Assembly: GCF_000423705.1 (NCBI RefSeq)
Contig: NZ_AUIM01000004.1
Coordinates: forward strand, 662,587-726,586
DNA from: Stappia stellulata DSM 5886
GTDB lineage: Bacteria; Pseudomonadota; Alphaproteobacteria; Rhizobiales; Stappiaceae
DNA length: 64,000 nucleotides
Direction of reading: 5' to 3'
Shown here piece by piece: positions 9,501 to 28,464 of this stretch (positions are counted from its first letter, which is position 1; each line of letters opens with the position of its first letter). Made by a program: the position numbers and the translations under genes. The notes beneath the pieces were generated by a model. That model was not told the origin of the DNA. It was given only the letters and a program-made list of their open reading frames with translations, and ran no database searches.

Positions 9501-10256
9501 TCAGTGCCGGATGATCTGGCTGAGGAAGGTTTTGGCGCGCTCGTTCTGCGGGTTGGTGAAGAAGGTCACCGGGTCGGCGCTTTCCACGACCTGCCCCTTG
9601 TCCATGAACACCACCTTGTTGGCGACGCTGCGGGCAAAGCCCATCTCGTGGGTGACGCAGATCATGGTCATTCCGTCCTCGGCGAGCTGCACCATTACAT
9701 CCAGCACTTCCTTGATCATTTCCGGGTCGAGCGCGGAGGTCGGTTCGTCGAAGAGCATCACCTCGGGCTGCATGCACAAGGCGCGCGCAATGGCGACGCG
9801 CTGTTGCTGGCCGCCGGAAAGCTGCGCGGGCTTCTTGTCGGCATGTTCCGCGATCTGGACCCGCTCGAGATAGGCGCGCGCCATCTCCTCCGCATCGGCC
9901 TTCGCCACCTTACGGATCTTGATCGGCGCGATGGTCAGATTCTGCAGGACGGTCAGATGCGGAAACAGGTTGAAATGCTGGAACACCATACCGACCTCGC
10001 GGCGCACCTCGTCGAGGCTCCGGCTCTTGCCGTCGAGGACCTTTCCAGCGACGCGGATCACACCGCCGTCGTGGGTTTCCAGGCCGTTGATGCAGCGGAT
10101 GAGCGTGGACTTGCCCGACCCGGAGGGGCCGCAAATGACGATGCGCTCCCCCTTTCCGACGTTCAGGTCGACGCCCTTCAGCGCCTGGAAGCCGCCAAAG
10201 TTCTTCTCCACTCGCTCCAGCTCAATCACAGGCGTCTCTGCGGTGATACCGGTCAA
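9501..10256 (-). CDS. Polar amino-acid-type ABC transporter ATP-binding protein (module 2)
   Basis: HisP/GlnQ-type ATPase of 251 residues. Walker A is GPSGSGKST (near residue 44), the signature is LSGGQQQR, Walker B is [14 protein letters not shown] and the switch His is in CVTHEMGF. The start appears to be TTG at 10256: AGGAGG lies 8 bases upstream and the TTGA overlap couples it to the epimerase-family stop codon. It should pair with the two permeases encoded at 11247-12599. It is a close homologue of the module 1 ATPase but follows the epimerase gene instead of preceding it, so gene order is rearranged between the modules. Confidence 0.9.
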   Translation of the reverse strand: MTGITAETPVIELERVEKNFGGFQALKGVDLNVGKGERIVICGPSGSGKSTLIRCINGLETHDGGVIRVAGKVLDGKSRSLDEVRREVGMVFQHFNLFPHLTVLQNLTIAPIKIRKVAKADAEEMARAYLERVQIAEHADKKPAQLSGGQQQRVAIARALCMQPEVMLFDEPTSALDPEMIKEVLDVMVQLAEDGMTMICVTHEMGFARSVANKVVFMDKGQVVESADPVTFFTNPQNERAKTFLSQIIRH

Positions 10257-14978: not shown

Positions 14979-15064
14979 CGCGCCATGTGTCAATGGACTT
15001 CCGGTGCCGCCGTGTTTATAGAAGTCGAGACGCATGATGCCGGTCCACAGACCGCAGAAGAGGA

Positions 15065-15742
15065 GTGGCCAGCTTGGACAACAGCCAGACCGGAAGCGAC
15101 GCAAAGGAAGAAAAAAGCAGCATCTCGGAGCAAGCTTACCAATATCTCCGAAGCCTTATCTTTGCCCAGAAGCTCGGCCCCGGTGATGTCTTCACGGAGA
15201 GGCGCCTGGCAGAGCAGTTGAACGCATCACGAACACCTCTGCGAACAGCAATAAATCGGCTCGAGGGGGAAGGTCTCATTGAGCGATTAGCCAATGGCAG
15301 CATTGTGATCAGGCAAGTTGCGGTAGAAGAATTGCTCGAAATTCTCTTGATTCGCCGCCTGCTGGAGGGCGAGGCCGCGGCACATTCGGCGCGGCGGGCA
15401 TCGCCGGAACGCATCGCCGACATGATGGACCGGACCGAAAAGCTTCTTGCCGACAAGACCATCGAGTTCGACCGATTCTGGGAATATGACGACGAGTTTC
15501 ACCTGTTCATCGCCGAGAGCAGCGGAAAACCGCTTCTGGCCAGCCTGATCCAGAACCTGCGCAACAAGGCGCGCATGTGCCACATGGTGCGGATGGAGCA
15601 GAATTTCGAGGAACAGGCGCGCGAGCATATCGCCGTGCTGAAGGCGCTTGAGGCGAAGGATCCGGAACGGGCGCGCGAGGCGATGATCGGCCATTTGGAC
15701 TGCGTCCGCGAGCGTTTGATGCGGTGGCTTTTTACACAGTGA
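15065..15742 (+). CDS. GntR-family regulator, FadR/FCD type
   Basis: Transcription factor of about 225 residues with an N-terminal winged helix (AYQYLRSLIFAQKLGPGD, then ERRLAEQLNASRTPLRTAINRLEGEGLI) and a C-terminal helical FCD ligand domain with putative metal-site residues in DDEFHLFIAES and EHIAVLKALEA. The frame opens at GTG 15065, but TTG 15074 has AGGAG exactly 8 bases upstream and may be the true start. Divergent from allA, it probably represses or activates module 2 and, through the site at 7823-7845, module 1. FCD proteins normally sense small carboxylates such as sugar acids. Confidence 0.88.
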   Translation: MASLDNSQTGSDAKEEKSSISEQAYQYLRSLIFAQKLGPGDVFTERRLAEQLNASRTPLRTAINRLEGEGLIERLANGSIVIRQVAVEELLEILLIRRLLEGEAAAHSARRASPERIADMMDRTEKLLADKTIEFDRFWEYDDEFHLFIAESSGKPLLASLIQNLRNKARMCHMVRMEQNFEEQAREHIAVLKALEAKDPERAREAMIGHLDCVRERLMRWLFTQ

Positions 15743-15796
15743 TTTCTTGAACCTGTTTCCGTTTTCCGCCTTGGGCCGGTTCATGTCGCCAAGCCG

Positions 15797-16723
15797 TCAG
15801 ACCGGCGGCGCAGCATCCTCCCAGGGCGGTCTCTTGAAGGCCGTCACCAGGAAATCGATGAATTTGCGGATGCGCGGCACCATGTGGCGGTCCGGCAGAA
15901 AAACGGCGTAGATCGCGCCGTCGTCGACCTTTGTGCAGTCGCCAAGCACCTGCACCAGCCGCCCGTCAGCAATCGCCGGACGCGCCAGATGCTCGGCAAT
16001 GCGCATGACGCCGAAGCCCGCCAGACACATCTGATAGAGCGACATGCCCTGATTGCTCTTGAACCGGCTCTCCGCGCGAAGGACAACCGGCGCGCCTCCG
16101 ACCACGAACCGCCATCGGTTCAGGTGGTCGCGGCTTCCGTCCCAGGCGACACAGGGCATGCGCTCCAGATCCGCCGGCGTCTGCGGCACGCCGAAACGCT
16201 CCAGCAGCGCGGGCGCGGCCACGACGATCCTCTGCAACCGGCACAGCCGCCGGTGCATCAGGCTGGACGCCGGCAACCGGCCCATGCGGATCGCCACGTC
16301 GATCTGGTCGTCGATCAGGTTTTCCGTGTCGTCGGTCAGGCGCAGGTCGAGCGACAGACCCGGGTGGGACGCCAGAAACTCCGGCATCAGGGGCGTGACC
16401 CGGTCGAGACCGAAGGCGATGGGCGCCGACACCCGCAAATGGCCCTCCACGCGGGCCTCGTTCGTCTGCCAGTCGGCCTCCGCCTGTTCCACCGTCTCGA
16501 TCACCCGGCGCGCCGCCGCCAGGAATTGCTCACCCTCCGCCGTCAGTCGGTGACCGCGCGTCGTGCGATGCAGAAGCCTTGTTTCAAGTCGCTGTTCGAG
16601 CCGCTGGACGGTCTGGCTGATGAAGGGCTGGCTGACCCCGAGGCTGTGCGCGGCCGCCGTGAAGGCTCCGGTGTCCACCACCGCCTGAAACACCCGCATT
16701 TCCAGCAGTCGGTCGTCGCGCAT
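15797..16723 (-). CDS. LysR-family transcriptional regulator
   Basis: LTTR of 308 residues (ATG 16723; a GTG two codons upstream is also possible). The N-terminal HTH spans about residues 5-62 (FQAVVDTGAFTAAAHSLGVSQPFISQTVQRLE), followed by a LysR_substrate domain with LRVSAPIAFGLDRVTPLMPEFL and LDLRLTDDTENLIDDQIDVAIRMG, the pattern of the CrgA/AaeR-like group. It is convergent with the GntR gene and has no divergent partner today: the upstream neighbour is only a decayed aldolase fragment, which might once have been its target. Confidence 0.9.
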   Translation of the reverse strand: MRDDRLLEMRVFQAVVDTGAFTAAAHSLGVSQPFISQTVQRLEQRLETRLLHRTTRGHRLTAEGEQFLAAARRVIETVEQAEADWQTNEARVEGHLRVSAPIAFGLDRVTPLMPEFLASHPGLSLDLRLTDDTENLIDDQIDVAIRMGRLPASSLMHRRLCRLQRIVVAAPALLERFGVPQTPADLERMPCVAWDGSRDHLNRWRFVVGGAPVVLRAESRFKSNQGMSLYQMCLAGFGVMRIAEHLARPAIADGRLVQVLGDCTKVDDGAIYAVFLPDRHMVPRIRKFIDFLVTAFKRPPWEDAAPPV

Positions 16724-16729
16724 CGCCAC

Positions 16730-17482
16730 TCATGCCCTTTCATCCGCGCCGCCTGGCCGTCGGCGACAACTATTATTGCCGATCTTGCGTTGCCGCGTCC
16801 CGCCGCTTGTTGCGAAAATGGCGCCGCGCACCGCGCGCGGCCGGTTTCGCGTGCGCACTGCTATCGAAGCCCCCATGCCCGACCCTTGAATTCGCGTCTC
16901 GATCTATCAGCCCCAGAGGTCGGGGCTGATCGTCCCGAATTCGACCGGATGGAGGACGAGCGCCGCCAGCGCAAAGAGCTGCACGCCAACGTCCATGACG
17001 CCCCCCCCCGACATCACCGGCAAAGAGACCGGGCCGGTCGCGGCGAAAAACCGGGCCGGTTCCACTGTCGCCAAGGCGTTCAAGGGCGCGAAGGCAGCGC
17101 TTCGCCAGAACCATGGCCTCCTCTCCGCCAGCCTCCACAGCATCGACAGCGCCGCCTTCTGGTTCATCGCGCTGGAGCGTTGCTGCAAGCAACAGCTCGA
17201 CTTGGGCAGGAGGGAAACGAAAACGCCCGGCAGGAAGTGAGGGCGACGGCGCGGCGGAACGGATGAACGTCGCGGTCCTGTTGCGCAGCGAAACACCCCC
17301 CACTGCAGATCACCTTGGTTTATGCGCTTGAGGAAGTGACCCTGCTCAACACCGCCAAAGGTGCTGTCCGCCACCGTCAAGACACGAACCCCTTGACAGG
17401 TTTTACTGTTCGCCAGCGTGGACACCCCCTGATTTTCGGGGTTTGATGGCGCAATGGTCAGTCCTTCCGCCCTCCTCGCACG
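16730..17482. other. 750-base region without an intact gene
   Basis: No convincing intact gene lies between the LysR gene and the alpha/beta hydrolase gene. The one recognisable piece is a class II aldolase remnant (16995-17240). Bases 17335-17440 contain a TTGACA-like box at 17393-17398 and a small stem (ACCCC/GGGGT, 17424-17428 with 17438-17442). Open frames on both strands through this stretch have no family resemblance. The region looks like the debris of a lost catabolic gene. Confidence 0.6.
16995..17240 (+). pseudogene. Remnant of a class II aldolase/adducin-family gene
   Basis: An 81-codon frame encodes ALRQNHGLLSASLHSIDSAA followed by FWFIALERCCKQQL, which matches the second half of class II aldolase/decarboxylase-like proteins (normally xxLRNHGLLTVGxxVDEAAFWFxxxERxCQxQL). 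The rest of a protein of roughly 230-260 residues is missing: no phosphate loop, no HxH metal motif upstream and no proper C-terminus. Recognisable homology covers about 17050-17215. It is therefore a decayed fragment, not a small gene, and it is not a copy of otnC, whose matching segment reads LLANHGPVVAAKDLSAAVFA. Confidence 0.65.
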
Positions 17483-19021
17483 ATGGCTCCCAAAGGCATG
17501 AGCGCGCACATCCGACACGACCGGCCGTCGCGCGGAGGCTTGCTTGGATGGCTCGTCACGCTTGTCGCGCTCATCGCCATCGCCGTCTCGATTTTCAATC
17601 TCGAGCGTGGCCGCGCGGGCCTCGACATCTCCGGGATGTCGGTCGGCACGACACCCGCGACACTCTATCGAAAGCCTGGCGAGGCCGGCCCGCTCGTCGT
17701 CATCGCCCATGGCTTCGCCGGATCGCGCCAGCTGATGCAGGCCTATTCGCTGACGCTCGCGCGCGCCGGCTACACGGTGCTCGCCTTCGACTTCGAGGGG
17801 CACGGGCGCAACCCGGTCCCGATGTCGGGCGACGTCACCTCCATCGACGGCACAACTGCGCTTCTGGTTGCGGAAACCCGCCGCGTGATCGCAGCCGGCC
17901 GGGCTCTCACGCCGGAAATTTCCGGCCTGGCGCTACTGGGTCATTCGATGGCGACCGACATTCTGGTCCGCGCCGCCATCGCCGAGCGCGACGCCGGCAC
18001 GCCCGTCGATGCAGTTGTCGCGATATCGATGTTTTCCCAGGCCGTGACGGCAGACCGGCCGGTGCGCCTTCTTGCGATCAGCGGCGAATGGGAGACAAGA
18101 CTGCGGGCGGTCGCCCTCGCCGATCTTCGGAAGGTTCAGCCCGACGCGGCCGAAGGCGAAACCGCGACCGCAGGCAACGTTCAGCGCCGCGCCGTCGTCG
18201 CGCCGGGTGTGGAGCATGTCGGGGTCTTGTTCAGCGAAACGGCCCTGCGCGAGACCCGGAACTGGCTGGATGGTGCGTTCAACAGAACGTCTTCGGGCCG
18301 GATCGTCTTGCCGGGTGTTTGGATCCTGCTGCTGATGGCGGGCATCGTCGGCCTGTTCAAGCCGCTTACGATGTTGCTGCCGCAGACCGCCGGGCCACCC
18401 CGGGAAATTTCCCCGCGCCTGTTCTGGGCCGCAGTCCTGGTCCCGGCCGTTACGGTACCGCTGGTGGCGGTCGTTTCCTATGTCCCGTTCCTGCCCGTTC
18501 TCGTCGCCGACTACCTGGTGATCCATCTGGCGCTCTACGGACTTGCCCAACTGGCGCTGCTGCATGTCTGGAAGGCGAAAGCGCTGGCCGTATCCCTGCC
18601 GGCAGTATTCCTGCTCGCGATCTGGGGAATTGCCGTCTTCGGCCTTGCGATGGACCGCTATGCGGCAAGCTTCATGCCCAACGGAGAACGGCTCGCGATC
18701 ATCGCCGCGCTGGCGGTCGGCACCGTGCCGTTCATGATCGCCGACAGCTTCGTGACGCGGGCCGGACACGGCCTGTGGTGGCACCGGATCGCCGCGCGGG
18801 CCGCCGTGCTCGTATCGCTTGGCGCAGCCGCGGCGCTCGATCCCGAGCGGCTGATGTTCCTGTTCCTCATCCTGCCCGTGCTGGTGCTTTTCTACCTTGT
18901 GCAGGGGCTGATGGGACGATGGGTGGCGCAGCGCTCGGGCGCGCTTTCAGCGGGCCTGGGGCTTGGTCTTTGCCTCGCATGGGCGCTTGGCGTCAGCTTT
19001 CCGCTTTTCAGCCCGGGCTGA
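17483..19021 (+). CDS. Membrane-anchored alpha/beta hydrolase with polytopic C-terminal half
   Basis: A 512-residue protein with an N-terminal membrane anchor (about residues 18-40, LLGWLVTLVALIAIAVSIF), then an alpha/beta hydrolase domain (VVIAHGFAGSRQLMQAY, FDFEGHGRNPVP, nucleophile elbow LLGHSMAT, late His in GVEHVGVLF), then roughly six to seven hydrophobic segments from about residue 272 to the end. The elbow is GHSMA rather than GxSxG, a known tolerated change. The hydrolase domain should face the periplasm. Substrate unknown; an esterase or acyl hydrolase acting on lipid-like molecules is a guess. A second in-frame ATG at 17498 has a closer AAAGG. Confidence 0.75.
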   Translation: MAPKGMSAHIRHDRPSRGGLLGWLVTLVALIAIAVSIFNLERGRAGLDISGMSVGTTPATLYRKPGEAGPLVVIAHGFAGSRQLMQAYSLTLARAGYTVLAFDFEGHGRNPVPMSGDVTSIDGTTALLVAETRRVIAAGRALTPEISGLALLGHSMATDILVRAAIAERDAGTPVDAVVAISMFSQAVTADRPVRLLAISGEWETRLRAVALADLRKVQPDAAEGETATAGNVQRRAVVAPGVEHVGVLFSETALRETRNWLDGAFNRTSSGRIVLPGVWILLLMAGIVGLFKPLTMLLPQTAGPPREISPRLFWAAVLVPAVTVPLVAVVSYVPFLPVLVADYLVIHLALYGLAQLALLHVWKAKALAVSLPAVFLLAIWGIAVFGLAMDRYAASFMPNGERLAIIAALAVGTVPFMIADSFVTRAGHGLWWHRIAARAAVLVSLGAAAALDPERLMFLFLILPVLVLFYLVQGLMGRWVAQRSGALSAGLGLGLCLAWALGVSFPLFSPG

Positions 19022-19039
19022 GCGTCCGCGACCCGGCGG

Positions 19040-21040
19040 CTATTGCGCCCCGGCGAGCGCAAGGTCCTGGGGGATGCGCGACGCGGCCCAGCTGTCCACC
19101 GCCAGGGTGCGAATGCTTTCGATCAGTTCCGCAGGCACCGGCGCCCCTGCCCCTGCGGGACGAATGAGGTCGTCGTGGAACAGGTAGAGCCGCGAGACGA
19201 ACTGCTCGAACACGAGCGAGGCCTCGCCGTGGCGTTCGCCGTTGCCATGCGTCGAGACGGTAACGCCACCGCCCCAGTCCTGACCGCTGTCGTTGTTGGG
19301 ATTGTAGAAATAAATGCGCGTGCGCCCTTCCGTATCCTGCGCCACACGCAGGATCGAAATTGCATGCCAGCCGACGAAGCGCGCGCTGGCATCCGTCACC
19401 GCAATACCTGCGGGCTGGGGATGGATCACCGGCCGGCCGCCGTTATACGCCGGGTGATACCCTTGGCAAAAGCGGGTGACGAAGCCGTCGTAGTCGTCCA
19501 GTTGCCCGGTCAGCACATCGACGGCAACGACGCAGTCGCGCGCCACCCACCAGCCGTGGAACTCCGGGTTGATCCAGCGGTGCGGGTCGCCGCCGCGCGG
19601 GGCGCAGATCCGTCCCATCTCGGCATAGACGCGGTCAAGATGCGGCACCAGCAGCACGGAGACCGGATCGGCGTCGATCGGCGCGCCGGCCGCAAGCCCG
19701 GCCGGCAGGTCGCCGGAGGCAATCGCCTTCCCCTCGAAATGCATCAACAGGGAATCGAACTCGCCCACCTGGCAGATCAGATGCAGCAGGAAGTCGGGAT
19801 CGTTCAGCGCCCACATGGCAATTGCGCGGGCGGACTGGCAGGGCGGGGTGGCGCCCTGCCCCACGCCCAGCGGCTGGCCCATGACCTCCAGCGTCCCGGC
19901 AAGCACACGCGTCTGCGCCGGAACGGCATTGCCGAATGCCAGTTCGATGCGCGCGGCGACGGCCGGCTGCAAGGTCATCGAGAGCTGACGCTCCAGCGCC
20001 GGCGCGATCGGGGCGCTGTGCAGCACGCCGCGTTCCAGAAGCATCGCCAGTCCGTGGACGGCCTGCGGTGTCTGGGGATGCACGGCCGCCGAAATCAGCT
20101 TGTCGACGAGCGGCTTGAACTTCCTGTAACTGTCGAGCCCCGTCCCTCCAAGTCCGAGCGCCTCGGGCGCGAAGGACGCGTCACGGTACTTCGACACCCA
20201 GCGCAGGAAGGCCGCGTGATAGTCGGACACAAGGCCGGTGTCATGCATGGCGCGAGCGAAGCCGGACGCCTCGCGGCGCAAGGCCGTATCGTCGAGCCGC
20301 TCCAGGCGCATCTGGTAGGCATCGATCCCCGGATCGTCGATGCACTCGTTTGTCGGCCCGAAAAGCGCGCTGACCAGCCGGTCCGCGCCGAGGCGCTCAC
20401 GCCCGATCCCGCCATCCTCGCGCGTCAGCGCGATGGCGATCTGGGTGATCATCTCCTTCACGGGGCCGACCTGGATCGGCCTCTGCTCGAGGATGCGCCA
20501 GATCTCCGTGACCAGAATGCCGAGCACGTCCTGGAAGCCGATGTGATCCGCGATGAAGCGGAACACATCGCGGCGCATGGCGGTCCCTGCACTGTCCTGC
20601 CGGTCCGCCTCGCTGGTCTGGTCGAAGAAATGCGGAAGATTGAGCGCCAGCACCTGCGTCAGGAAATGACGGGCATGTTCGGCATGAACGTTGACATGCG
20701 CCCCGCCGCCGCTGGCGATCGCCAGCAGCCGCAGCAGGCTGGCCACCTCGAGCGCGACCGTCAGTCGGTCCGGACTTTGCAAGGTCTGCCCGACCAGCTG
20801 CGGCAACAGCCTTGAGGGGTCGTCCCAGTCGGACCCGCGAAAGAGACCGGCGGCCTCCATCGCAAGCCCGCGCGCGTAGAGCGCGTCCAGCCCGCCGGGA
20901 ACCGCAGCGAGACGCGCCGCCACATCGAGGACGGGACGCTGATGGCGTTGCTTGGCGAAGGGCCGCGCTCCGGAAAGCCGCTCGATGGCCACATCGAGCG
21001 TATCGGCCAGCCGTGCCGCCTCGGGCCTCGTTTCCGTCAT
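19040..21040 (-). CDS. Large uncharacterised protein with papain-like catalytic residue spacing
   Basis: No family is recognised. Start ATG 21040 is chosen because AAGGACG lies 8 bases upstream; the protein has 666 residues, no signal peptide and no membrane span. The first 380 residues are mostly helical. The C-terminal third has GQGATPPCQSARAI with Gln395 and Cys401, the same six-residue step as Gln19-Cys25 of papain, then GWHAIS with His559 and YFYNPNND with Asn580. That order and the local sequences suggest a papain/transglutaminase-fold cysteine hydrolase or acyltransferase; this is inference from motif geometry. The gene follows the ATP-grasp gene by 52 bases and is probably co-transcribed with it. 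It lacks resemblance to known peptidase sequences I can name. Confidence 0.7.
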   Translation of the reverse strand: MTETRPEAARLADTLDVAIERLSGARPFAKQRHQRPVLDVAARLAAVPGGLDALYARGLAMEAAGLFRGSDWDDPSRLLPQLVGQTLQSPDRLTVALEVASLLRLLAIASGGGAHVNVHAEHARHFLTQVLALNLPHFFDQTSEADRQDSAGTAMRRDVFRFIADHIGFQDVLGILVTEIWRILEQRPIQVGPVKEMITQIAIALTREDGGIGRERLGADRLVSALFGPTNECIDDPGIDAYQMRLERLDDTALRREASGFARAMHDTGLVSDYHAAFLRWVSKYRDASFAPEALGLGGTGLDSYRKFKPLVDKLISAAVHPQTPQAVHGLAMLLERGVLHSAPIAPALERQLSMTLQPAVAARIELAFGNAVPAQTRVLAGTLEVMGQPLGVGQGATPPCQSARAIAMWALNDPDFLLHLICQVGEFDSLLMHFEGKAIASGDLPAGLAAGAPIDADPVSVLLVPHLDRVYAEMGRICAPRGGDPHRWINPEFHGWWVARDCVVAVDVLTGQLDDYDGFVTRFCQGYHPAYNGGRPVIHPQPAGIAVTDASARFVGWHAISILRVAQDTEGRTRIYFYNPNNDSGQDWGGGVTVSTHGNGERHGEASLVFEQFVSRLYLFHDDLIRPAGAGAPVPAELIESIRTLAVDSWAASRIPQDLALAGAQ

Positions 21041-21092
21041 GGTCAATTCGTCCTTGTGCAAGCGATCGCCCCCGACGTGCCTGGAGACGCCC

Positions 21093-22316
21093 CTAGATAT
21101 AGAAATCCAGATCCTCCTGAGCCTTCAGGAGATCCCGCAGTTTGTGCGGATTCTCTCCAAAGAAATAGGCCAGACCCCAGTGGGTGCCGAATGCAGTGCG
21201 CTTCGTGACCTTCTGCTCCGCCGGCGAGGCAAGTTCGTGGAACTCGAAATAAGGGTGGTTCTGGGTTTCCTCCGGCACTTCCAGCCGGCTGATGACGCGC
21301 CGGCGCGGATAGACGCCGAAACACCCGGCATAGCCCTTGGCATCCGTCACCTCTTCGGGGAAGAAGGCGTCGATTTCCTCCGTCGTCGCCTTGGGGTCGA
21401 ACATCAAGGCGATGCCCTGATAGCCGTTGAACCCGTAGGCGCGTTCGATCAGTTCAAGCGCGTTGAAGCCCGGCGGACGATAGGCGACCTCGCCGAAGTA
21501 GAGCTTGCCGTCGCTCGTCAGGAAATATTCCGGATGAATGAAACCGAAATCGATGTCGAAGGTCTCGATCAGCTTCTCGACCTCCTCGGTGATCCGGGCA
21601 CGCCAGGACTCAAGCTCGGGCGTCGCCGGCACGAACACCGAATAGCCGAGCGTCACATATTCGGAAATGTTCAGGAACTGGATCTTTCGGTCCTTGATCC
21701 AGGCCTCGACCGCAAACTCCCAACCGTCGAGATGGCTTTCCAGCAGGGCCGGAAACTCCTCGTCGGGGATGTTGTCGACATCTTCCGGCGTGCGGATCAC
21801 CCGGTGGCCGGCCGTGCCGGACTTGTCGAATGCCTTGAAGTGGATCGGGTCGTTGGGATCGCCCTCGAGCTTCAGCAGCGTCTGGTTGACGCGCTTCAGG
21901 AAGCGGATCACGTCGCCGCGATCGTGCGCTTCCTCGAAGACGCCGACACGAATGCCGCCAAGCTGCGCACGCCGCTTCATCAAAGACTTGTCGCGGAACA
22001 GCATCGACTGGCCGAGAAGACGCGGATTGTCCATGAGCACGGAATTGATTGCACCCGCCCATTCCACGGTTTCCTCAAACAGCGGAATGGCAACGTCGAC
22101 GCCCTCTTCCTTCAACCGGTGGGCAAGCTCGTGCGACCGCTCGTTCAGCCGGTCGAAATCCCACGACATGTAGGGAATCTCGTTCTGCTGACAGTACTCC
22201 TCGGCCCAGGGCGGCGCGACGACGATGTACTTGCGATCGAACCGGTCGATTGCGTCAATGGCGTTCAGGCTCCAGCCGAGAAGCGCGATGTAGCCTTTGT
22301 CGGGATCAATGCTCAT
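21093..22316 (-). CDS. ATP-grasp carboxylate ligase-like protein
   Basis: A 407-residue protein starting at ATG 22316 behind AGGAGTT. The N-terminal pre-ATP-grasp domain (ALLGWSLNAIDAIDRFDRKYIVV, DVAIPLFEETVEWAG) is followed by the ATP-grasp core: LLKLEGDP, the flexible loop IHFKAFDKSGTAGHRVI with Lys161, GWEFAVEAWIKD, and the metal-binding end LYFGEVAYRPPGF. Such enzymes join a carboxylate to an amine or thiol through an acyl-phosphate. The substrate is unknown. Its partner gene encodes the papain-like protein, and the divergent gene is a ureohydrolase, so a guanidino-containing amide or dipeptide-like product is a reasonable guess. Confidence 0.82.
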   Translation of the reverse strand: MSIDPDKGYIALLGWSLNAIDAIDRFDRKYIVVAPPWAEEYCQQNEIPYMSWDFDRLNERSHELAHRLKEEGVDVAIPLFEETVEWAGAINSVLMDNPRLLGQSMLFRDKSLMKRRAQLGGIRVGVFEEAHDRGDVIRFLKRVNQTLLKLEGDPNDPIHFKAFDKSGTAGHRVIRTPEDVDNIPDEEFPALLESHLDGWEFAVEAWIKDRKIQFLNISEYVTLGYSVFVPATPELESWRARITEEVEKLIETFDIDFGFIHPEYFLTSDGKLYFGEVAYRPPGFNALELIERAYGFNGYQGIALMFDPKATTEEIDAFFPEEVTDAKGYAGCFGVYPRRRVISRLEVPEETQNHPYFEFHELASPAEQKVTKRTAFGTHWGLAYFFGENPHKLRDLLKAQEDLDFYI

Positions 22317-22550
22317 GTGTAACTCCTGTTCTGCGAAATGGACACGTCCTCCTGCAGCCTCGCACCGGATATGCGGCACGATCGCGCGAATGAGTGCGTG
22401 GCTAACGCACGCGTCCATCACATGAAGAACACGCTCCTGCCGGCCACTTGAAAATGAAACGTAAAGGAATAGGATCAGAATTCAAGCTACGGCAATGAAT
22501 TATAAAAACATCTCCGGCAAAAATGAAAATTGCGACGCGCCATTCTGGAA

Positions 22551-22570
22551 AATATTATTGATATAATATT
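22551..22570. promoter_or_regulatory. Perfect AT inverted repeat with embedded -10-like box
   Basis: AATATTAT at 22551-22558 is matched by ATAATATT at 22563-22570 around a TGAT centre, a perfect 8-bp palindrome pair. TATAAT, a perfect -10 box, occurs at 22562-22567. No good -35 lies 17 bases upstream on the plus strand, so the element could be an operator over an activated promoter for the ureohydrolase gene or its divergent partner. Confidence 0.45.
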
Positions 22571-22615
22571 TCAGATTTCGCCATATGTTTTCAAATATTA
22601 CTTTTATACAAACAA

Positions 22616-22643
22616 AAAAATCTAAAAGTAATTTTGGATTTTT
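22616..22643. promoter_or_regulatory. A/T-rich stem-loop in the presumed ureohydrolase leader
   Basis: A stem of 12 pairs (AAAAATC plus AAAA pairing with TTTT and GATTTTT, one T-G pair) closes on a GTAA loop. If transcribed, the AU-only helix would be weak, as in RNA thermometers or transcription pause sites. It lies about 165 bases before the ureohydrolase start. Function is not established. Confidence 0.35.
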
Positions 22644-22809
22644 AGTGCACAATTCCGCAAGCGCCCCTGGAGACGACGGATCTCGACCCCGTACCGGTTT
22701 TTTTATACCGTCTGACGGACCGGTCGGGGGCCGTGACGGCGCCGGCCGTCCGTGCGCGGCGCATCGCATCGCGGACCGCGTCGAGCCATTTCTTGCTGGA
22801 GCCCCCTCA

Positions 22810-23769
22810 ATGACGGATCCGTTCTTTCAGCCGGTGTCCGGGTTCGACCTGCCCCGCTTTGCAGGCGTCCCTACCTTCATGCGGCTCCCGCTCGTGGAAA
22901 ACGACCATCCGCGCCGCAAGGCTGTCGACATCGGGCTGGTCGGCGCCCCCTGGGACGGCGGCACCACCAACAGGCCCGGGCCGCGCCATGGCCCGCGGCA
23001 GCTGCGCGACCTGTCGACGATGATCCGCGCGCAGAACGGCGCGACCGGCGTTCGTCCGTTCGAACGGGCCAATTGCGCGGATCTCGGCGACGTCGGCCCG
23101 AACCCGGTCGACCTTCAGGACAGCCTCAAGCGCATGACGGCGTTCTACGCAGGGCTGAAGCAGGAGCGCATCCGCCCGCTGACCGCCGGCGGCGATCACC
23201 TGTGTTCGCTTCCGATCCTGCGGGCACTGGCAGTCGACGGCCCGCTCGGGCTCATCCACTTCGACAGTCACACGGATCTCTATCACAGCTATTTCGACGG
23301 CTGCCTCTACACCCACGGCACTCCGTTTCGCCGCGCGATGGAAGAAGGGCTGCTCGATCCGCACCGCTGCGTCCAGATCGGCATTCGCGGCACCGCCTAC
23401 GACAATGAAGACCGGGCATTCGCGCAATCCGCGGGCATTCGGGTCATCGCCATCGAGGAGTTTTTCGCACGCGGGGTCGAGGACGTGATGGCGGAGGCCC
23501 GCGAGATCGCCGGAGAGGCCCCGACCTATGTCTCCTATGACATCGACTTCGTCGATCCGGCCTATGCGCCCGGGACGGGCACGCCCGAGGTCGGCGGTCC
23601 GAATTCCTTCCAGGCGCTGCAGGTGGCGCGGCTTCTTTCGGGCGTAAACATCGTCGGCGCGGATCTTGTCGAGGTCTCCCCGCCCTTCGACGCCTCCGGC
23701 GGCACCGCATGGCTTGGCGTCTCGATCCTGTTCGAGATGCTGTGTGCGATGGTTGAAAGGCCGGCCTGA
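22810..23769 (+). CDS. Agmatinase/arginase-family ureohydrolase
   Basis: Manganese-dependent ureohydrolase of 319 residues that removes urea from a guanidino compound. The start is ATG 22810 with TGGAG upstream; the longer open frame runs into AT-rich non-coding sequence. Metal motifs are complete: GGDHLCSL, HFDSHTDLYHSYFDG, and SYDIDFVDPAYAPGTGTPEVG. THGTPFRRAMEEGLLDP is typical of the agmatinase/guanidinobutyrase group, not arginase. Because the gene is divergent from the ATP-grasp/papain-like pair, its substrate may be a product or building block of that system. Agmatine, 4-guanidinobutyrate and 3-guanidinopropionate are all possible. Confidence 0.85.
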   Translation: MTDPFFQPVSGFDLPRFAGVPTFMRLPLVENDHPRRKAVDIGLVGAPWDGGTTNRPGPRHGPRQLRDLSTMIRAQNGATGVRPFERANCADLGDVGPNPVDLQDSLKRMTAFYAGLKQERIRPLTAGGDHLCSLPILRALAVDGPLGLIHFDSHTDLYHSYFDGCLYTHGTPFRRAMEEGLLDPHRCVQIGIRGTAYDNEDRAFAQSAGIRVIAIEEFFARGVEDVMAEAREIAGEAPTYVSYDIDFVDPAYAPGTGTPEVGGPNSFQALQVARLLSGVNIVGADLVEVSPPFDASGGTAWLGVSILFEMLCAMVERPA

Positions 23770-23790
23770 CCGGCTGCGCGCAGGCGGTCA
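23767..23790. terminator. Bidirectional hairpin between convergent genes
   Basis: An interrupted palindrome (TGACCG-G-CTGC-GC-GCAG-G-CGGTCA) includes the stop codons of both the ureohydrolase gene and the convergent membrane-protein gene. The symmetry lets it serve both directions. It marks the boundary of the ureohydrolase transcription unit. Confidence 0.6.
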
Positions 23791-24522
23791 GCGCGACGCG
23801 CCGAACCCGACGTCGTCCGCAGCGGAAGGCTGCGCAAGCATCCGCGCCATCGTTGTGACGTGGAAACTCATCCAGCAAAAGATGCCAAGGAATTTCGCCC
23901 CGTCCTCGACATAGACGAGGACAGGATCGAGGCTGTGGAACACCGTGTCCACGCCCATGCTGAAGGCAAGTGCGCCGCAGGCCAGCAGAAGCAGCCACTT
24001 GTCGTGGTTGAGAATGATCCGATGGCTTGCCGCGACATAGACGACGGCAAATGCGGCATTCGCCGCCAGGACCAGATTTTGCGCGATCCCGAATTCGGGC
24101 AGCACGACCTCATGCAACAGGAAGGCATCGTCCAGCGCCAGCCACCCCGACAGCAATCCGGCGGCACCGGCAAACAACACGACCGCACGCGCCCGATGCG
24201 TCAGCGCGAAGGCGAGCGCGCAAAACAGGCACACCGCAGCGGTCGCGACCCACAGCATGATGCCGAGCGTCGAGACGAAGCCGAAATAGGGCCGACAGCA
24301 GGACTCCGCAAATTCCGCCGCTGCAAGCGTATCGAGGAACATCAGCTTGGGCTCTTTCACCGGCAACAGCAGAACCAGCGCCAGAAAGAGACTTGGAAGG
24401 ACCAGTGTGCAGACCCGTATCGCCGTCACCGGCCAGGCCCCACCGCGCACCGTGTCGAGAGGTACGGAGGACGCAGCGCCACCTTTCGGTTCGCAATCGG
24501 GAGAGAGTGAAAACTCGGACAT
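23788..24522 (-). CDS. Uncharacterised polytopic membrane protein
   Basis: A 244-residue protein starting most likely at MSEFSLSP (ATG 24522), with about six hydrophobic segments between residues 38 and 225. The cytoplasmic or loop segment FAESCCRPYFGF carries paired cysteines, and the segment LALDDAFLLHEVVLPEFG has acidic and His residues next to a membrane helix, a pattern that could bind metal. No transporter or enzyme family is recognised. It is convergent with the ureohydrolase gene and separated by 80 bases from the tautomerase-fusion gene start side, so its operon membership is unclear. Confidence 0.6.
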   Translation of the reverse strand: MSEFSLSPDCEPKGGAASSVPLDTVRGGAWPVTAIRVCTLVLPSLFLALVLLLPVKEPKLMFLDTLAAAEFAESCCRPYFGFVSTLGIMLWVATAAVCLFCALAFALTHRARAVVLFAGAAGLLSGWLALDDAFLLHEVVLPEFGIAQNLVLAANAAFAVVYVAASHRIILNHDKWLLLLACGALAFSMGVDTVFHSLDPVLVYVEDGAKFLGIFCWMSFHVTTMARMLAQPSAADDVGFGASR

Positions 24523-24603
24523 GGCGCTGGATCGACCTCGCGACAGAAAGACCATGGGAACCTTCACGCCCCCCATACGAAGCCCTTTCTTTACCGCCAA
24601 GGT

Positions 24604-25185
24604 CTAAACATCGGTTGAATCGCATCCCTCCCGTTTTCGCTCGCCCAGATCGTTCCAGACGCTCTGGCTGACAAGCCGCCCGTTCTCGACCTCGAAACGG
24701 TCGATGAAACGCACGCTCTCGAAACGCGACCCGTCCAGCCATTCCCCGCTCAGCGTGCCGTGACAATGAACCACCGCACGGCCGTCGGAAAAGCCGGTAT
24801 CGAACCCGGCGATGGTCTTGGAAACGCGCCGATACCGCGTCCCGGCCCAGGCAACCATTTCGGCAAGCGCCGAAAACCGCTGCCCGCCGGGAAACACCAT
24901 TTCGAAGCCGTCGGCGAGACAGGACTGCGCCCGCGGCAGGTCGCGCGCCTCCATCGCGGCGAGAAACCCGCGGACCACATCGACCGGATCGGGCACGGCG
25001 ACGCCCGGCGTGCGGCTCCGTCCGCCGCGCATGTAGTTCGACGGCCTCACCTCCTCGATGGCGACGGTCACCCCGTCCGCCGGCGCGGCGATGGTGCCGC
25101 GCACAGCGTCCGTCAGCCGCAGCGCAAGCCGCTGGCGCACCTCCTCCGCATAACCCTCGATCATCGTCACCCGCACGATCGGCAT
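24604..25185 (-). CDS. Tautomerase-SnoaL-like fusion protein
   Basis: A 193-residue protein with two domains. Residues 1-60 look like a 4-oxalocrotonate tautomerase subunit (MPIVRVTMIEGYAEEVRQRL), with Pro2 available as the N-terminal catalytic proline after Met removal. Residues about 72-190 form a SnoaL/NTF2-like cone domain (DVVRGFLAAMEARDLPRAQS, then FIDRFEVENGRL). GGGGGAGAG lies before the ATG. It is divergent from the HutC-type regulator gene and shares a 163-base promoter region with it, so it probably belongs to the same regulon as the hydantoinase operon. An isomerase for a pathway intermediate is likely. Confidence 0.8.
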   Translation of the reverse strand: MPIVRVTMIEGYAEEVRQRLALRLTDAVRGTIAAPADGVTVAIEEVRPSNYMRGGRSRTPGVAVPDPVDVVRGFLAAMEARDLPRAQSCLADGFEMVFPGGQRFSALAEMVAWAGTRYRRVSKTIAGFDTGFSDGRAVVHCHGTLSGEWLDGSRFESVRFIDRFEVENGRLVSQSVWNDLGERKREGCDSTDV

Positions 25186-25295
25186 TGCCGCTCTCCCCCT
25201 TTTCGCTTCCCGTCTTGTCCGGTCCGAACCCTCACCGACCCCGGAAATCGGCCACCCCCGCAAGATCCGGACAGGCGGCCGGAAGCCGGTTGACA

Positions 25296-25319
25296 TAATG
25301 ATATAATGACATACCATTA
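25296..25319. promoter_or_regulatory. Candidate operator of the HutC-type GntR regulator
   Basis: A 24-base imperfect palindrome, TAATGATAT paired with ATACCATTA around AATGAC, lies in the divergent region between the tautomerase-fusion and GntR/HutC genes, just after TTGACA at 25290-25295 and overlapping TATAAT at 25302-25307. The location and symmetry suit an autoregulatory GntR site. I did not find a second copy before the transporter operon. Confidence 0.5.
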
Positions 25320-25348
25320 AACGTAACAAACGGAAAGAGAGCCCAGCC

Positions 25349-26215
25349 GTGAGCACGCCGCCGATCCCGATCGTTTCCGAGACACAGGGCAGCGACACCG
25401 CCTCCACGGCGCGCGGATCCGGCATTCTCGATCCCAACGGGCCGGTCCCGCTCTACCACCAGATCTTCCTGCTGCTGCGCAACCGCATCTATGGCGGCAA
25501 CCTGTCGGCCGGCGAACGCGTGCCGAGCGAGCAGGATCTCACCACGGAATTCGGCGTCTCCCGCATCACCGCCAAGCGCGCGCTGAACGAATTGGCGGAC
25601 GCCGGCCTCGTCATCCGCGAACGCGGGCGCGGCACGCGCGTCGTCAACCGCCCGCCGGCGCCTGCCGTCACGTCGTCCATCGAAGGCTGGCTGGAGAACA
25701 TCACCTTGATGGGCCAGTCGACCACGGCGGAAGTCCTGTCCTTCGCCTACACGCAGGCCGGCGAGGAGATCGCCCATGCCCTGGAGGTGGAGCCCGGCAC
25801 CGAGGTGCAACGCGCGGTGCGCGTGCGTCGTCTCGAGGGCGAGCCGATGTCCTATCTCGTCACCTATGTGCCCGCCGACATCGGCCGCCACTACGGCGCC
25901 GACGACCTCAACGTCCAGCCGCTGCTGCACCTTCTGGAACGCGCCGGGGTGGATGTCACCTCCGCCCGCCAGACGATTTCCGCGACCGTTGCCGAGACGG
26001 ACGTCGCCGCCGTGCTTGCGATCCCGGCCGGTTCGCCGCTGATCGAGGTGCGCCGCGTGGTCAGCGACCGCGCCGAGCGCCCCGTTGAATACATCCGCGT
26101 CCTGTACCGGCCGGATCTCTACCGTTTCGAAATGTCCATGCGCCGGGTGCGCGCCGAAAGCGGCCCGCGCTGGACCACGACAAGCTCTCCACCGGTCCCG
26201 GCCGGCGGAGGATAA
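25349..26215 (+). CDS. GntR-family regulator, HutC/UTRA type
   Basis: A 288-residue regulator starting at GTG 25349 after GGAAAGAGAG. The winged helix covers about residues 30-98 (PLYHQIFLLLRNRIYGGNLSAG, then SRITAKRALNELADAGLVIRERGRGT), followed by a UTRA ligand domain (EVLSFAYTQAGEEIAHALEVEPG, PLIEVRRVVSDRAERPVEYI, LYRPDLYRFEM). HutC regulators usually repress catabolic genes and are released by a pathway intermediate. It stands 64 bases upstream of the binding-protein gene of the Liv-type transporter, in the same direction, so it may be the first gene of that operon or a separate unit. Confidence 0.92.
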   Translation: MSTPPIPIVSETQGSDTASTARGSGILDPNGPVPLYHQIFLLLRNRIYGGNLSAGERVPSEQDLTTEFGVSRITAKRALNELADAGLVIRERGRGTRVVNRPPAPAVTSSIEGWLENITLMGQSTTAEVLSFAYTQAGEEIAHALEVEPGTEVQRAVRVRRLEGEPMSYLVTYVPADIGRHYGADDLNVQPLLHLLERAGVDVTSARQTISATVAETDVAAVLAIPAGSPLIEVRRVVSDRAERPVEYIRVLYRPDLYRFEMSMRRVRAESGPRWTTTSSPPVPAGGG

Positions 26216-26279
26216 AAGCGCAAAGAGGGACCCGGGACAGCCAACCGGTCGCGAAGACGGCCGTCAGTGGAGGTTTGAG

Positions 26280-27512
26280 ATGACTGACAAGACGTTGAAG
26301 GGCGGCCTGCGCCGCCGCGAATTCCTGGCCACCGGCGCCGCCGCCCTCGGCCTTGGCGTGACGGGCTTTCCGAGCGTGCTGCGCGCCCAGGCCGCCCCCG
26401 TGAAGATCGGCCTGATCCACCCTGTTTCCGGCTTCATCGCCTTTTCCGGCACTCAATGCCGCGAAGGCGCAATGATGGCGATTGCCGACATCAACGCCGC
26501 CGGCGGCATCAAGTCGATGGGCGGCGCCAAGGTCGAGGCGGTGCTTGCCGACAGCCAGGGCAAACCGGAAATCGGCGCGGCCGAGGTAACCAAAATGGCG
26601 GAGGCCGGCATCGACGGCATCGTCGCCGGCTATGCCTCCTCGATCTCGCTCGCCACCTCGCAGGAAGCGGCCAAGACCAACACGCCGCATGTCGTCGACG
26701 TCGGCGTCTCCGACCAGATCGTCCAGCGCGGCCTCGCCAACACGTTCCGCTTCGGTCCCGGCTACGGCAAGATCGCCGAGTTTGCCGTCGACAACCTCGA
26801 CACGATCAACAAGGCGGCCGGATCGCCGGCCAAGACGGCGATGATCATCCACGAGGAATCGCTGTTCGGCACCGGCACCGCCGGTCTGCTCTCCAAACGC
26901 CTGCCTGAGAGAGGCATCGAGGTAATCGATGTCATCAAGCACGCCAATCCGACGCGCGACTTCACCAACATCGTGCTCCAGATCAAGTCGCAGAAACCGG
27001 ACCTGATCATTCCCGCCAACTACTACAACGAATATGTGCTGCTCGCCCGCACCATGCGCCAGCAACGCATCGAGGCGAAAGGCATCTATTCGGTGCTCGG
27101 AGGTGCTGCATCGAATTACAAGTTCGTCAACGAATTCCCCGAGGCCGCCGACCTCATCATGGATTGCAACCACTGGTTCAATCCGAAGTCGGACGTGGCG
27201 CTTGAGCGCAAGACGGCGGCGGAAGCCAAGGGCCTGATCTACACCTACGAGGTGTTCCTCGCCTATAACGCCGTTCTCGGACTGGTCGATGCCATCGAGC
27301 GCGCCGGCTCCACCGACAAGGATGCGGTGAACGCAGCCCTTGCCGCCTCGGAAATGGACATGTCCTACATGCCCTATGGCGCGACGAAGATGGTCGACGG
27401 GCAGAACGCGGGCGCCCAGCCGGTCAACACCCAGGTGCAGAACGGCGACATCGAGGTGATCTTCCCGGCCGAGTTTGCCTCCGCCGAGACGGTCTTCCCG
27501 ATGGGCGGCTGA
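26280..27512 (+). CDS. Branched-chain amino-acid-type ABC transporter substrate-binding protein
   Basis: A 410-residue Peripla_BP_6 protein. The start ATG 26280 follows GGAGGT. It carries a twin-arginine signal (LRRREFLATGAAALGLG), so it is probably exported folded by Tat and cleaved after LRAQA. The mature part shows PVKIGLIHPVSGFIAFSG, AIADINAAGGI and NPTRDFTNIVLQIKSQKPDLI. It captures the solute for the permeases that follow. The downstream enzymes indicate that this solute is a cyclic nitrogen compound rather than leucine. Confidence 0.9.
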   Translation: MTDKTLKGGLRRREFLATGAAALGLGVTGFPSVLRAQAAPVKIGLIHPVSGFIAFSGTQCREGAMMAIADINAAGGIKSMGGAKVEAVLADSQGKPEIGAAEVTKMAEAGIDGIVAGYASSISLATSQEAAKTNTPHVVDVGVSDQIVQRGLANTFRFGPGYGKIAEFAVDNLDTINKAAGSPAKTAMIIHEESLFGTGTAGLLSKRLPERGIEVIDVIKHANPTRDFTNIVLQIKSQKPDLIIPANYYNEYVLLARTMRQQRIEAKGIYSVLGGAASNYKFVNEFPEAADLIMDCNHWFNPKSDVALERKTAAEAKGLIYTYEVFLAYNAVLGLVDAIERAGSTDKDAVNAALAASEMDMSYMPYGATKMVDGQNAGAQPVNTQVQNGDIEVIFPAEFASAETVFPMGG

Positions 27513-27532
27513 TCGCCGGTCGCGGGATCGAA

Positions 27533-27560
27533 GCGGGCGGGGCCTGACGCTCCCGCCCGC
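27533..27560 (+). terminator. Hairpin between binding-protein and permease genes
   Basis: A perfect 9-bp GC stem (GCGGGCGGG / CCCGCCCGC) with a 10-base loop lies 20 bases after the binding-protein stop. It is followed by CCCTCTC, not a T-run, so partial attenuation or 3'-end protection of the binding-protein message is more likely than full termination. Confidence 0.55.
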
Positions 27561-27591
27561 CCCTCTCATCCGACAAGCCTTGCGAGTGACC

Positions 27592-28464
27592 ATGCCCGAC
27601 ATGGCGATCATCGTGCCGTCCGTACTGAACGGGCTGACGACAGGCGCGCTCTATGCGCTCGTCGCGCTCGGCCTGACGCTGATCTACGGCGTGCTGCACA
27701 TCATCAACTTCGCCCATGGGGCGCTGCTGATGCTCGGCCTCTACGCGGTCTACTATCTCAACGTCCAGTTCGGCATCGACCCTTACGTGGCGCTTCTGAT
27801 CGTGCCGCCGGGCATGTTCGCGCTCGGCTATGCACTGCAGCGCGGGATCATCGGCCGCGCCAGTCACGGGCGGGATGAAAACATCCTGCTGGTGACGCTC
27901 GGCCTCGCCATCGTGATCGAGAACCTCTCGCTCTTCCTGTTCAAGTCCGACACGCGCATCGTCGACGTGCCCTATGGCTTCCAGGTCGTCGAGATCTTCG
28001 GCGCCTTCCTGCCGCTGCCCAAAGTGGTCGCCTTCGCCGGCGCGCTGATCACGGCAGCCCTGCTGTGGCTGATCATGAGCAAGACGGATCTCGGCCGCGC
28101 GATCCGCGCGCTTGCAAAGGAGCGCAAGGGCGCGCAACTCGTCGGCATCGATGTGGAGCATGTTTTCGCCATGAGCTTCGGGCTCGGCATTGCGTGTCTT
28201 GGCGTCGCCGCCTGCCTGCTCCTGCCGAGCTACTACGTGAACCCGCAGGTCGGCCACGGCTTCGTGTTGATCGCCTTCACCATCGTCGTGCTCGGCGGCA
28301 TGGGCTCCTTCGTCGGCGCGCTTCTGGGCGGGCTGATCATCGGGGTGGTGGAAGCGCTCGGCGGCCTGTTCTTCGGCGAAAGCCTGGGCCAGCTCGGCAT
28401 CTTCCTGATCTTCATCCTCGTTCTCGTCTTTCGCCCAACGGGCCTGCTTGGACACAAGGTCTGA
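27592..28464 (+). CDS. Liv-type ABC transporter permease (LivH family)
   Basis: Inner-membrane permease of 290 residues with eight or so hydrophobic segments. Typical family blocks are NGLTTGALYALVALGLTLIYG at the start (entered from about residue 12), INFAHGALLMLG, and VVLGGMGSFVGALLGGLIIG near the C-terminus. The start at ATG 27592 is preferred over a GTG two codons upstream; no strong ribosome site is visible. It works with the LivM-type protein encoded three bases downstream. Confidence 0.9.
   Translation: MPDMAIIVPSVLNGLTTGALYALVALGLTLIYGVLHIINFAHGALLMLGLYAVYYLNVQFGIDPYVALLIVPPGMFALGYALQRGIIGRASHGRDENILLVTLGLAIVIENLSLFLFKSDTRIVDVPYGFQVVEIFGAFLPLPKVVAFAGALITAALLWLIMSKTDLGRAIRALAKERKGAQLVGIDVEHVFAMSFGLGIACLGVAACLLLPSYYVNPQVGHGFVLIAFTIVVLGGMGSFVGALLGGLIIGVVEALGGLFFGESLGQLGIFLIFILVLVFRPTGLLGHKV

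Follow-up and report, generated by a model that had tools for sequence, protein, structure and literature searches.

The window considered here is a stretch of 64,000 nucleotides from the alphaproteobacterium Stappia stellulata DSM 5886 (contig NZ_AUIM01000004.1, positions 662,587 to 726,586). Its subject is a pair of adjacent genes on the minus strand, of which the upstream one encodes a protein resembling ATP-grasp carboxylate-amine ligases and the downstream one a papain-like protein of 666 residues. The latter had been singled out in a first-pass annotation of the sequence, which described an open reading frame (ORF) of 666 codons belonging to no known family, with Gln395, Cys401, His559 and Asn580 in the order of a papain-type active site; the reading frame and all four residues are found exactly at the positions given there. 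The features of the pair are as follows:

21096..22316, minus strand: ATP-grasp carboxylate-amine ligase-like protein, 407 aa (ATP-grasp_4 match below the cut-off; stop codon at 21093-21095)
19043..21040, minus strand: papain-like protein gene, 666 aa (ORF with ATG at 21040 and stop codon at 19040-19042)
19922..21040, minus strand: residues 1-373, predicted all-helical N-terminal half (AlphaFold; median pairwise identity in the family 49%)
19076..19921, minus strand: residues 374-655, predicted papain-type catalytic domain (AlphaFold; median pairwise identity 62%, from residue 374 to the end)
19856..19858, minus strand: codon of Gln395, a glutamine of the oxyanion-hole type (invariant, 79/79)
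19838..19840, minus strand: codon of Cys401, the predicted nucleophile (invariant, 79/79; N-terminus of helix 401-413 in the AlphaFold model)
19364..19366, minus strand: codon of His559 (invariant, 79/79; in strand 555-568 of the AlphaFold model)
19301..19303, minus strand: codon of Asn580 (invariant, 79/79; just past strand 574-579 of the AlphaFold model)

Conservation of the Gene Pair

The absence of a known family is borne out by library searches: nothing in Pfam or NCBIfam matches the papain-like protein at E ≤ 1, nor anything in PADLOC or PHROGs at E ≤ 0.01, and a profile made from four sequences of its family finds no match among PDB sequences at E ≤ 10. At least 488 relatives were confirmed by a pattern scan of genome contigs, the best 80 of which were kept (the 80 loci). 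When the window protein is aligned with 78 relatives, 51-69% identical to it, the four active-site residues are invariant in all 79 sequences, which argues that their papain-like order is not due to chance; His467, His487, His540, Asp584, Gln587 and Trp589 are invariant as well. The same four residues are retained throughout a second alignment of 77 sequences, which combines 66 of the 79 rows of the first with 11 more diverged copies from further genomes, including three solo paralogues. Locus L042, which contains an internal stop, was left out of both alignments and of the identity correlation given below. In the record of Halomonas sp. PA16-9 (L006), a frame change lies near the 3' end of the papain-like gene (9797-9937), possibly as a sequencing error.

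The similarity of the 407-residue partner to known enzymes stays below the thresholds: its match to Pfam ATP-grasp_4 (PF13535) scores 17.7 bits against a cut-off of 27, in NCBIfam it matches only three models, all far under their cut-offs, and its PDB matches to the L-amino acid ligases 4wd3 (E = 0.051) and 3vot (E = 0.17) are non-significant. In an alignment of 37 of the available sequences (mean column identity 84%), E263, E276 and R280 are invariant (37/37) and stand in the order expected from the ATP-grasp L-amino acid ligases of PF13535; we take E263 and E276 to be the metal-binding residues and R280 to be the phosphate-binding Arg near the C-terminal lobe of the ATP-grasp superfamily. 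Apart from scoring below the Pfam cut-off, the partner differs from ATP-grasp_4 proteins in forming a tight, separate clade, without any match at E ≤ 1e-20 outside 11 pair-holders among 398 sampled genomes of the phylum.

That the ATP-grasp gene is a genuine partner, as the first-pass annotation supposed, is confirmed by its position: 79 of the 80 loci have it directly upstream and in the same orientation. In the window, 52 bases separate its stop codon from the papain-like ATG, and in 23 of the 79 linked loci an in-frame papain-like ATG is available that overlaps the upstream stop codon; this spacing and its conservation suggest that the two genes are co-transcribed. The sole locus without an adjacent upstream ATP-grasp gene is L034, in whose genome a second papain-like copy (L123) adjoins an ATP-grasp gene in reversed order. 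The ATP-grasp gene is cut by a contig end in L059 and L086 and broken in L038. Among 11 loci from further genomes, eight have the ATP-grasp partner, four of them in tandem and four in divergent orientation (L104, L106, L108, and L110).

The two genes also co-occur across genomes. Profiles of the papain-like protein (E ≤ 1e-3) and of the ATP-grasp protein (E ≤ 1e-20), searched independently, match the identical 11 of the 398 genomes, in 7 of 213 genera, with copy numbers that are sometimes unequal (three papain-like and two ATP-grasp genes in G168, one and two in G148). Median pairwise identity is 77% for the ATP-grasp protein and 55% for the papain-like protein, and the pairwise identities of the two correlate with r = 0.87 over 75 loci, the set being the 80 loci without L042 and without L034, L038, L059, and L086, where the ATP-grasp gene is non-adjacent, broken or truncated. 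These observations support the view that the papain-like and ATP-grasp genes form a conserved unit.

Solo papain-like paralogues occur in a single genus at L103 7018-9027, L105 7279-9246, and L109 7918-9870, and the three sampled genomes of this genus carry three papain-like copies each. The solo gene of L105 has a Memo-family gene on one side and GCS2-like and AstE/AspA-like genes on the other, all on the same strand.

Predicted Fold of the Papain-Like Protein

The AlphaFold model of the full-length protein (mean predicted local distance difference test, pLDDT, 86; predicted template modeling score, pTM, 0.81) is helical for the first ~370 residues and continues into a mixed domain. There, Cys401 sits at the start of a helix and His559 within a strand, and the strand after that is followed by Asn580. 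Modeled alone, the catalytic domain reaches a mean pLDDT of 88 and a pTM of 0.87. With this domain, the best Foldseek match is m-calpain (3df0; E = 3.3e-3, probability 0.99, template modeling (TM) score 0.42); ranks 1-9 are all papain-fold peptidases, as are, by manual reading, 25 of the first 26, and the top match in the viral library is again a papain-like peptidase (E = 0.001). We therefore regard the catalytic domain as papain-type with moderate-to-high confidence, as judged from the conserved residues and the model.

Calpain offers the closest comparison. The order Gln, Cys six residues later, His, and Asn is shared with the calpain C2 family (PF00648) and clan CA, and so is a helix with an L-E-K-x-Y-A-like motif between Cys and His. 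The spacings are also similar: Cys to His is 158-159 residues and His to Asn 21 in the papain-like family (73 of 77 rows parsed), against 157 and 24 in calpain-1, as counted manually from the alignment. In contrast, the calpain motif NPWG corresponds to NPNNDSGQDWG in the papain-like protein, and the distance from Cys to the Tyr of the helix motif is 80 residues in calpain-1 but 71 here (manual count). A further difference is the undescribed helical N-terminal half, in a protein that matches none of the Pfam profiles of calpain C2 (PF00648), papain C1 (PF00112) or the transglutaminase core (PF01841). A profile-profile search, which had been suggested as a check of the papain-like assignment, yielded no significant comparison with peptidases or transglutaminases (E = 0.15-0.68, against 0.31 for an unrelated control): hhalign gave E = 0.39 with a single bacterial calpain, 0.68 with an alignment of three bacterial calpains, and 0.65 with a transglutaminase, these three being no better than the control, while two single C1 sequences did slightly better than it (E = 0.15 and 0.17). 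Both calpain alignments are in register at the Gln-Cys motif, and the three-sequence one also at an L-D-R-x-Y-A motif, which is suggestive only. The domain is calpain-like in the sense of a resemblance only. Overall, the searches and the model support a protein family that is undescribed in the libraries searched and combines a papain-type catalytic order with a papain-like predicted fold.

The helical half invites an explanation in which the pair acts on proteins: the ATP-grasp enzyme would respond to osmotic stress by attaching an amino acid or a peptide to a protein, and the papain-like protein would recognize the tagged protein through its helical half and remove or transfer the tag through its thiol domain. 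Such reversible tagging is consistent with the high conservation of the ATP-grasp protein across phyla, with the presence of the papain-fold deubiquitinase ZUP1 (7oje) in the Foldseek list of the catalytic domain, and with the helical-repeat proteins that lead the list for the full-length model. However, that list is weak, its armadillo-type proteins reaching only E ≥ 0.065 and TM scores by query length ≤ 0.19 among the 50 rows shown; the sub-threshold matches of the ATP-grasp protein point to small-molecule ligases, and there is no candidate target protein. We consider protein tagging unlikely.

Distribution and Likely Mobility

The best 80 relatives come from Alphaproteobacteria, Gammaproteobacteria, Thermodesulfobacteriota, and Actinomycetota, and most of the taxa are, as we understand them, marine, hypersaline or soda-lake organisms. 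The papain-like family is sparse in each sample: besides the 11 of 398 genomes of the window's phylum, it is present in 3 of 296 Actinomycetota, including the query-centre genome, and in the phylum of L033 (a metagenome-assembled genome of Desulfobacteraceae) in 1 of 148, the query-centre genome only. A plasmid collection holds one relative, on a 1.8-Mb Halomonas replicon.

In a tree made by a quick method, the papain-like proteins of Actinomycetota are split between two separate positions, and that of the window is placed inside a group of 20 rows that otherwise consists of Roseobacteraceae and Paracoccaceae (99% support). Because of these placements, the pair very likely moves horizontally between lineages. 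In Streptomyces daqingensis, a partial, apparently degenerate second papain-like copy lies ~8 kb from the intact pair (L120 13940-14278, minus strand).

Mobility could also be expected of a module for a peptide natural product of the graspetide type or for anti-phage defence, and ATP-grasp ligases and thiol proteases occur in systems of both kinds. Against this stand the lack of PADLOC and PHROGs matches and the outcome of the searches in phage records, where no relative was found, and in viral contigs, where 76 stretches matched a pattern and none was a confirmed relative. Moreover, no conserved small ORF (≥ 25 residues) was found within 1.5 kb on either side of the pair beyond gene ends and Halomonadaceae synteny, so a precursor peptide like those of graspetides and other ribosomally synthesized and post-translationally modified peptides is not apparent near the pair, and the ~40 neighbor proteins scanned are mostly ordinary. 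A natural-product or defence role is therefore highly improbable.

Association With Ectoine Synthase

Few salt protectants have been studied as thoroughly as ectoine, which is also produced industrially. The gene for ectoine synthase, ectC, is present in all 27 pair-holding genomes tested. Of these, nine belong to a sample of 339 genomes of the phylum, taken as a subset of the 398, in which ectoine synthase (PF06339, E ≤ 0.001) occurs in 51 genomes: 9 of 9 pair-holders and 42 of 330 others. The corresponding hypergeometric probability is 2e-8 by genome and 2e-5 by genus, in both cases with no correction for phylogeny or salinity. The remaining 18, all with ectC, comprise two genomes from the 398-genome sample and 16 genomes of the 80 loci, the latter from Alphaproteobacteria, Gammaproteobacteria, Thermodesulfobacteriota, and Actinomycetota; the pair-holders G005, G007, G008, G011, G556, and G790, like the genomes of the remaining 64 loci, are outside this count. 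Next to ectC, 22 of the 27 genomes carry ectA and ectB, the window's genome (L164) among them.

Three unrelated lineages carry ectC, or a remnant of the gene, within 2 kb of the pair. In Oceanibium (L022), a solitary ectC lies 0.66 kb from the pair in divergent orientation, at a locus that also contains an integrase-core gene; in Saccharopolyspora soli (L058), ectC is 1.9 kb away and accompanied by an ectB fragment; and in the Desulfobacteraceae genome (L033), a 33-residue ectC tail lies ~70 bases upstream of the pair on the same strand. The search for such proximity covered the 80 loci, L006, L102-L112, L120-L123, L163, L166, L167, and the window; by chance, 0.09 cases would be expected (P ~1e-4), given assumptions on genome size and copy number and with loci treated as independent. 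As a rule, the pair is not co-localized with ectABC, since ectC or its remnant is near it in only 3 of the 80 loci and nowhere as part of a complete set.

Solitary ectC genes are found elsewhere too. Four genomes, among them G498 (Marinobacter shengliensis, L071), carry an ectC lacking ectA and ectB within ~4 kb (L171, L173, L174, and L184), and in an alignment these ectC genes closely resemble the solitary one beside the Oceanibium pair. In addition to ectABC-ask, the window's genome encodes a second protein, of ~263-276 aa (L165; G000 contig C3, 91204-91881); it contains two weak ectoine-synthase-like stretches, one of which is 29% identical to an EctC. What solitary EctC proteins do has been described as an unresolved question (PMC5924519).

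Proposed Function

Taken together, the two minus-strand genes may constitute a self-contained, horizontally mobile two-enzyme amide module that serves the osmoadaptation of ectoine producers, an interpretation to which we give an even chance. The ATP-grasp protein would use ATP to activate a carboxylate and would couple this to an amine. The papain-fold thiol enzyme, with Cys401 as the nucleophile, His559 and Asn580 as its catalytic companions, and Gln395 forming the oxyanion hole, would then transfer, trim or reverse the amide by way of an acyl-enzyme. The amide product would contribute to osmoadaptation in bacteria that also make ectoine. As substrate, presumably a small molecule, we can only guess at a compound of the ectoine pathway (diaminobutyrate, N-acetyl-diaminobutyrate or ectoine) or at an independent amino-acid amide solute.

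In the more specific of these versions, the pair would form a branch of ectoine metabolism: the ATP-grasp protein would couple ectoine, hydroxyectoine or a diaminobutyrate precursor to an amino acid, through the carboxylate (or the amine) of the former. The conjugate would be a store or a second-tier osmolyte, to be released or transferred by the papain-type enzyme. In the case of a solitary ectC, the encoded EctC may act on the product of the pair by closing a ring. We regard a branch of this kind as rather unlikely.

A tentative alternative, which we consider possible though doubtful, keeps the link to salt and drops the one to ectoine: the pair would make a separate amide or dipeptide compatible solute, comparable to N-acetylglutaminylglutamine amide, and ectC would simply mark salt-adapted genomes, as it tends to do. 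ATP-grasp_4-type ligases include amino-acid ligases, and the non-significant matches of the ATP-grasp protein to 4wd3 and 3vot are in line with such a product, as are the five pair-holders in which ectA and ectB are not beside ectC. On the other hand, the presence of ectC in 27 of 27 pair-holders is tighter than a loosely shared habitat would suggest, and its proximity to the pair in three unrelated lineages also speaks against independence, although neither point is decisive.

Several observations weigh against an amide module tied to ectoine producers. On the genomic side, no ectA or ectB lies within ~4 kb of ectC in 5 of the 27 pair-holders (G168, G234, G270, G498, and G493), none of the three ectC neighbors of the pair belongs to a complete ectABC, and the ectC count covers only 16 of the genomes of the 80 loci; the association may reflect shared salinity and shared ancestry. 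No ATP-grasp gene appears in the stretches fetched around the three solo papain-like copies (L103, L105, and L109). On the structural side, no Foldseek E-value for the catalytic domain is below 0.001, the loop of residues 394-399 just before Cys401 is a low-confidence part of the model, and the profile-profile comparisons of the domain with bacterial calpain, C1 peptidases, and transglutaminase are not significant.

The Divergent Ureohydrolase

Two further features of the window lie upstream of the pair:

22810..23769, plus strand: ureohydrolase, nearest to 3-guanidinopropionase; a local neighbor judged not to be part of the module
22450..22649, no strand: AT-rich segment within the divergent intergenic region (22317-22809), with windows of 19-38% GC

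The ureohydrolase is a strong match to the arginase family (Pfam E = 1.2e-84), and among PDB entries it is closer to 3-guanidinopropionase (3nip, E = 1.3e-113) than to guanidinobutyrase (3nio, E = 1.9e-88). It is transcribed divergently from the pair across an AT-rich spacer, as had been described, and the three promoter-like hexamers found in 18950-23000, against 0.6 expected, all lie within 22448-22594.

From this arrangement, the first-pass annotation had derived a pathway in which the ligase makes a guanidino-containing amide, the papain-like enzyme processes it, and the ureohydrolase hydrolyses it. A survey of three-gene co-occurrence upholds the ATP-grasp/papain-like pair and not the trio, since linkage of the ureohydrolase is seen only in the Stappia group. 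Of 14 genomes of the genus, three pair-holders (G000, G005, and G008) have a close orthologue of the ureohydrolase (E ≤ 1e-120), which is divergent from the pair in each (G000, L007, which is from G005, and G008). The genus includes two more pair-holders, G011 and G007, the latter fragmentary; neither has a ureohydrolase at this threshold, and none lies in the 18 kb around the pair of G011. In the other 79 loci, the fetched stretch contains a ureohydrolase relative only in L028 (39% identity) and L030 (33%), and none at E ≤ 1e-5 was found in the remaining 77. The three divergent genes of the Stappia group and the two distant ones speak for the guanidino pathway, while the absence of a ureohydrolase from most loci and from the surroundings of the G011 pair, together with the resemblance to 3-guanidinopropionase, which we take to be an ordinary catabolic enzyme, speak against it. 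As there is no recurrent three-gene linkage, the pathway is left without support and is largely refuted; we find it barely credible.

Neighborhood of the Pair

A constant third gene was found neither by clustering nor among the ~40 neighbor proteins scanned. Rfam gave only sub-threshold matches in window positions 15000-28000; in seven relatives it revealed, near the pair, a tRNA (L009) and a signal recognition particle RNA (L049), and, ~6 kb from it, a c-di-GMP-I riboswitch (L032). Insertion next to tRNA genes was considered as a rule and rejected, because a tRNA gene of any kind is present in just 5 of the 60 loci scanned.

Some genes recur near the pair in subsets of loci. Genes for MscK/MscS-type mechanosensitive channels are found in 17 Halomonadaceae loci and L006, in L059 (2712-3539), and in L051 (16444-17289), a Pfam match being seen for L059 only; they represent shared synteny in Halomonadaceae and apparently separate occurrences in Ectothiorhodospiraceae and Pelagibius, and we do not count them as strong evidence. 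A putative zinc metallopeptidase (PF15887) is encoded near the pair in Oceanibium (L022 745-1719), Pelagibacterium (L026 10135-11163), and Wenzhouxiangella (L086 6314-7279); the copies of L026 and L086 are 81% and 75% identical to that of L022, with Pfam matches for L022 and L026 and assignment by similarity only for L086. In Thiomicrorhabdus and Desulfobulbaceae, a recurring gene (L032 3387-4520, L037 5006-6133, L042 10007-11104, and L044 10082-11179) presumably resembles the arginase/deacetylase superfamily. In Salinivibrio sharmensis, genes for an Amidoligase_2 protein and a glutamine-amidotransferase/C26 protein follow the pair on the same strand (L041 10106-11787). In the window itself, an ORF of 277 aa joins a tautomerase domain to a SnoaL-like domain (24607-25437, minus strand).

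Comparison With Known Systems

The combination of an ATP-grasp ligase with a papain-fold enzyme has parallels among described systems. In the butirosin pathway, the ATP-grasp ligase BtrJ works with BtrH, a papain-fold enzyme that transfers acyl groups. The BtrH family is named papain-like in a published account (PMC2922099). In contrast to butirosin biosynthesis, no carrier protein or pathway genes are seen among the scanned neighbors of the pair, and the papain-like protein is without any Pfam match. The Anbu-associated operon, which encodes a circularly permuted ATP-grasp protein, an alpha-E protein, and a transglutaminase-like protein, likewise unites an ATP-grasp with a papain/transglutaminase-like enzyme, but neither window protein matches the families of this operon in Pfam, and no proteasome-like gene was found among the scanned neighbors. 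The genes for the osmolyte N-acetylglutaminylglutamine amide (NAGGN) of saline bacteria also pair an ATP-grasp-containing synthesis with a peptidase in the cluster; here the difference is that the papain-like protein lacks an NCBIfam match and that those of the ATP-grasp protein are to three other models.

No paper on the pair is among the literature matches listed, the coverage of which is thin for subscription papers and does not include Iyer et al. 2009, reportedly the main earlier survey of ATP-grasp amidoligase systems. Nor does any match listed relevantly join an ATP-grasp enzyme with ectoine, and in a paper on the classification of papain-like proteins, ATP-grasp was found only in the title of a reference (PMC10318531).

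Significance

The association with ectoine synthase is more interesting than the guanidino idea from which the analysis started. It concerns a conserved, transferable two-gene cassette that is always accompanied by ectoine synthase in the genomes tested and is unnamed in the libraries scanned, and it brings in a protein family, itself undescribed, whose catalytic order is papain-type and whose predicted fold is of the same type. The pair hints that salt adaptation includes a component not yet recognized and, if an amide module of this kind does serve ectoine producers, would be a missing part of their osmoadaptation. It also bears on the question of the role of solitary EctC: should the pair indeed form a branch of ectoine metabolism, orphan EctC proteins would gain a function.

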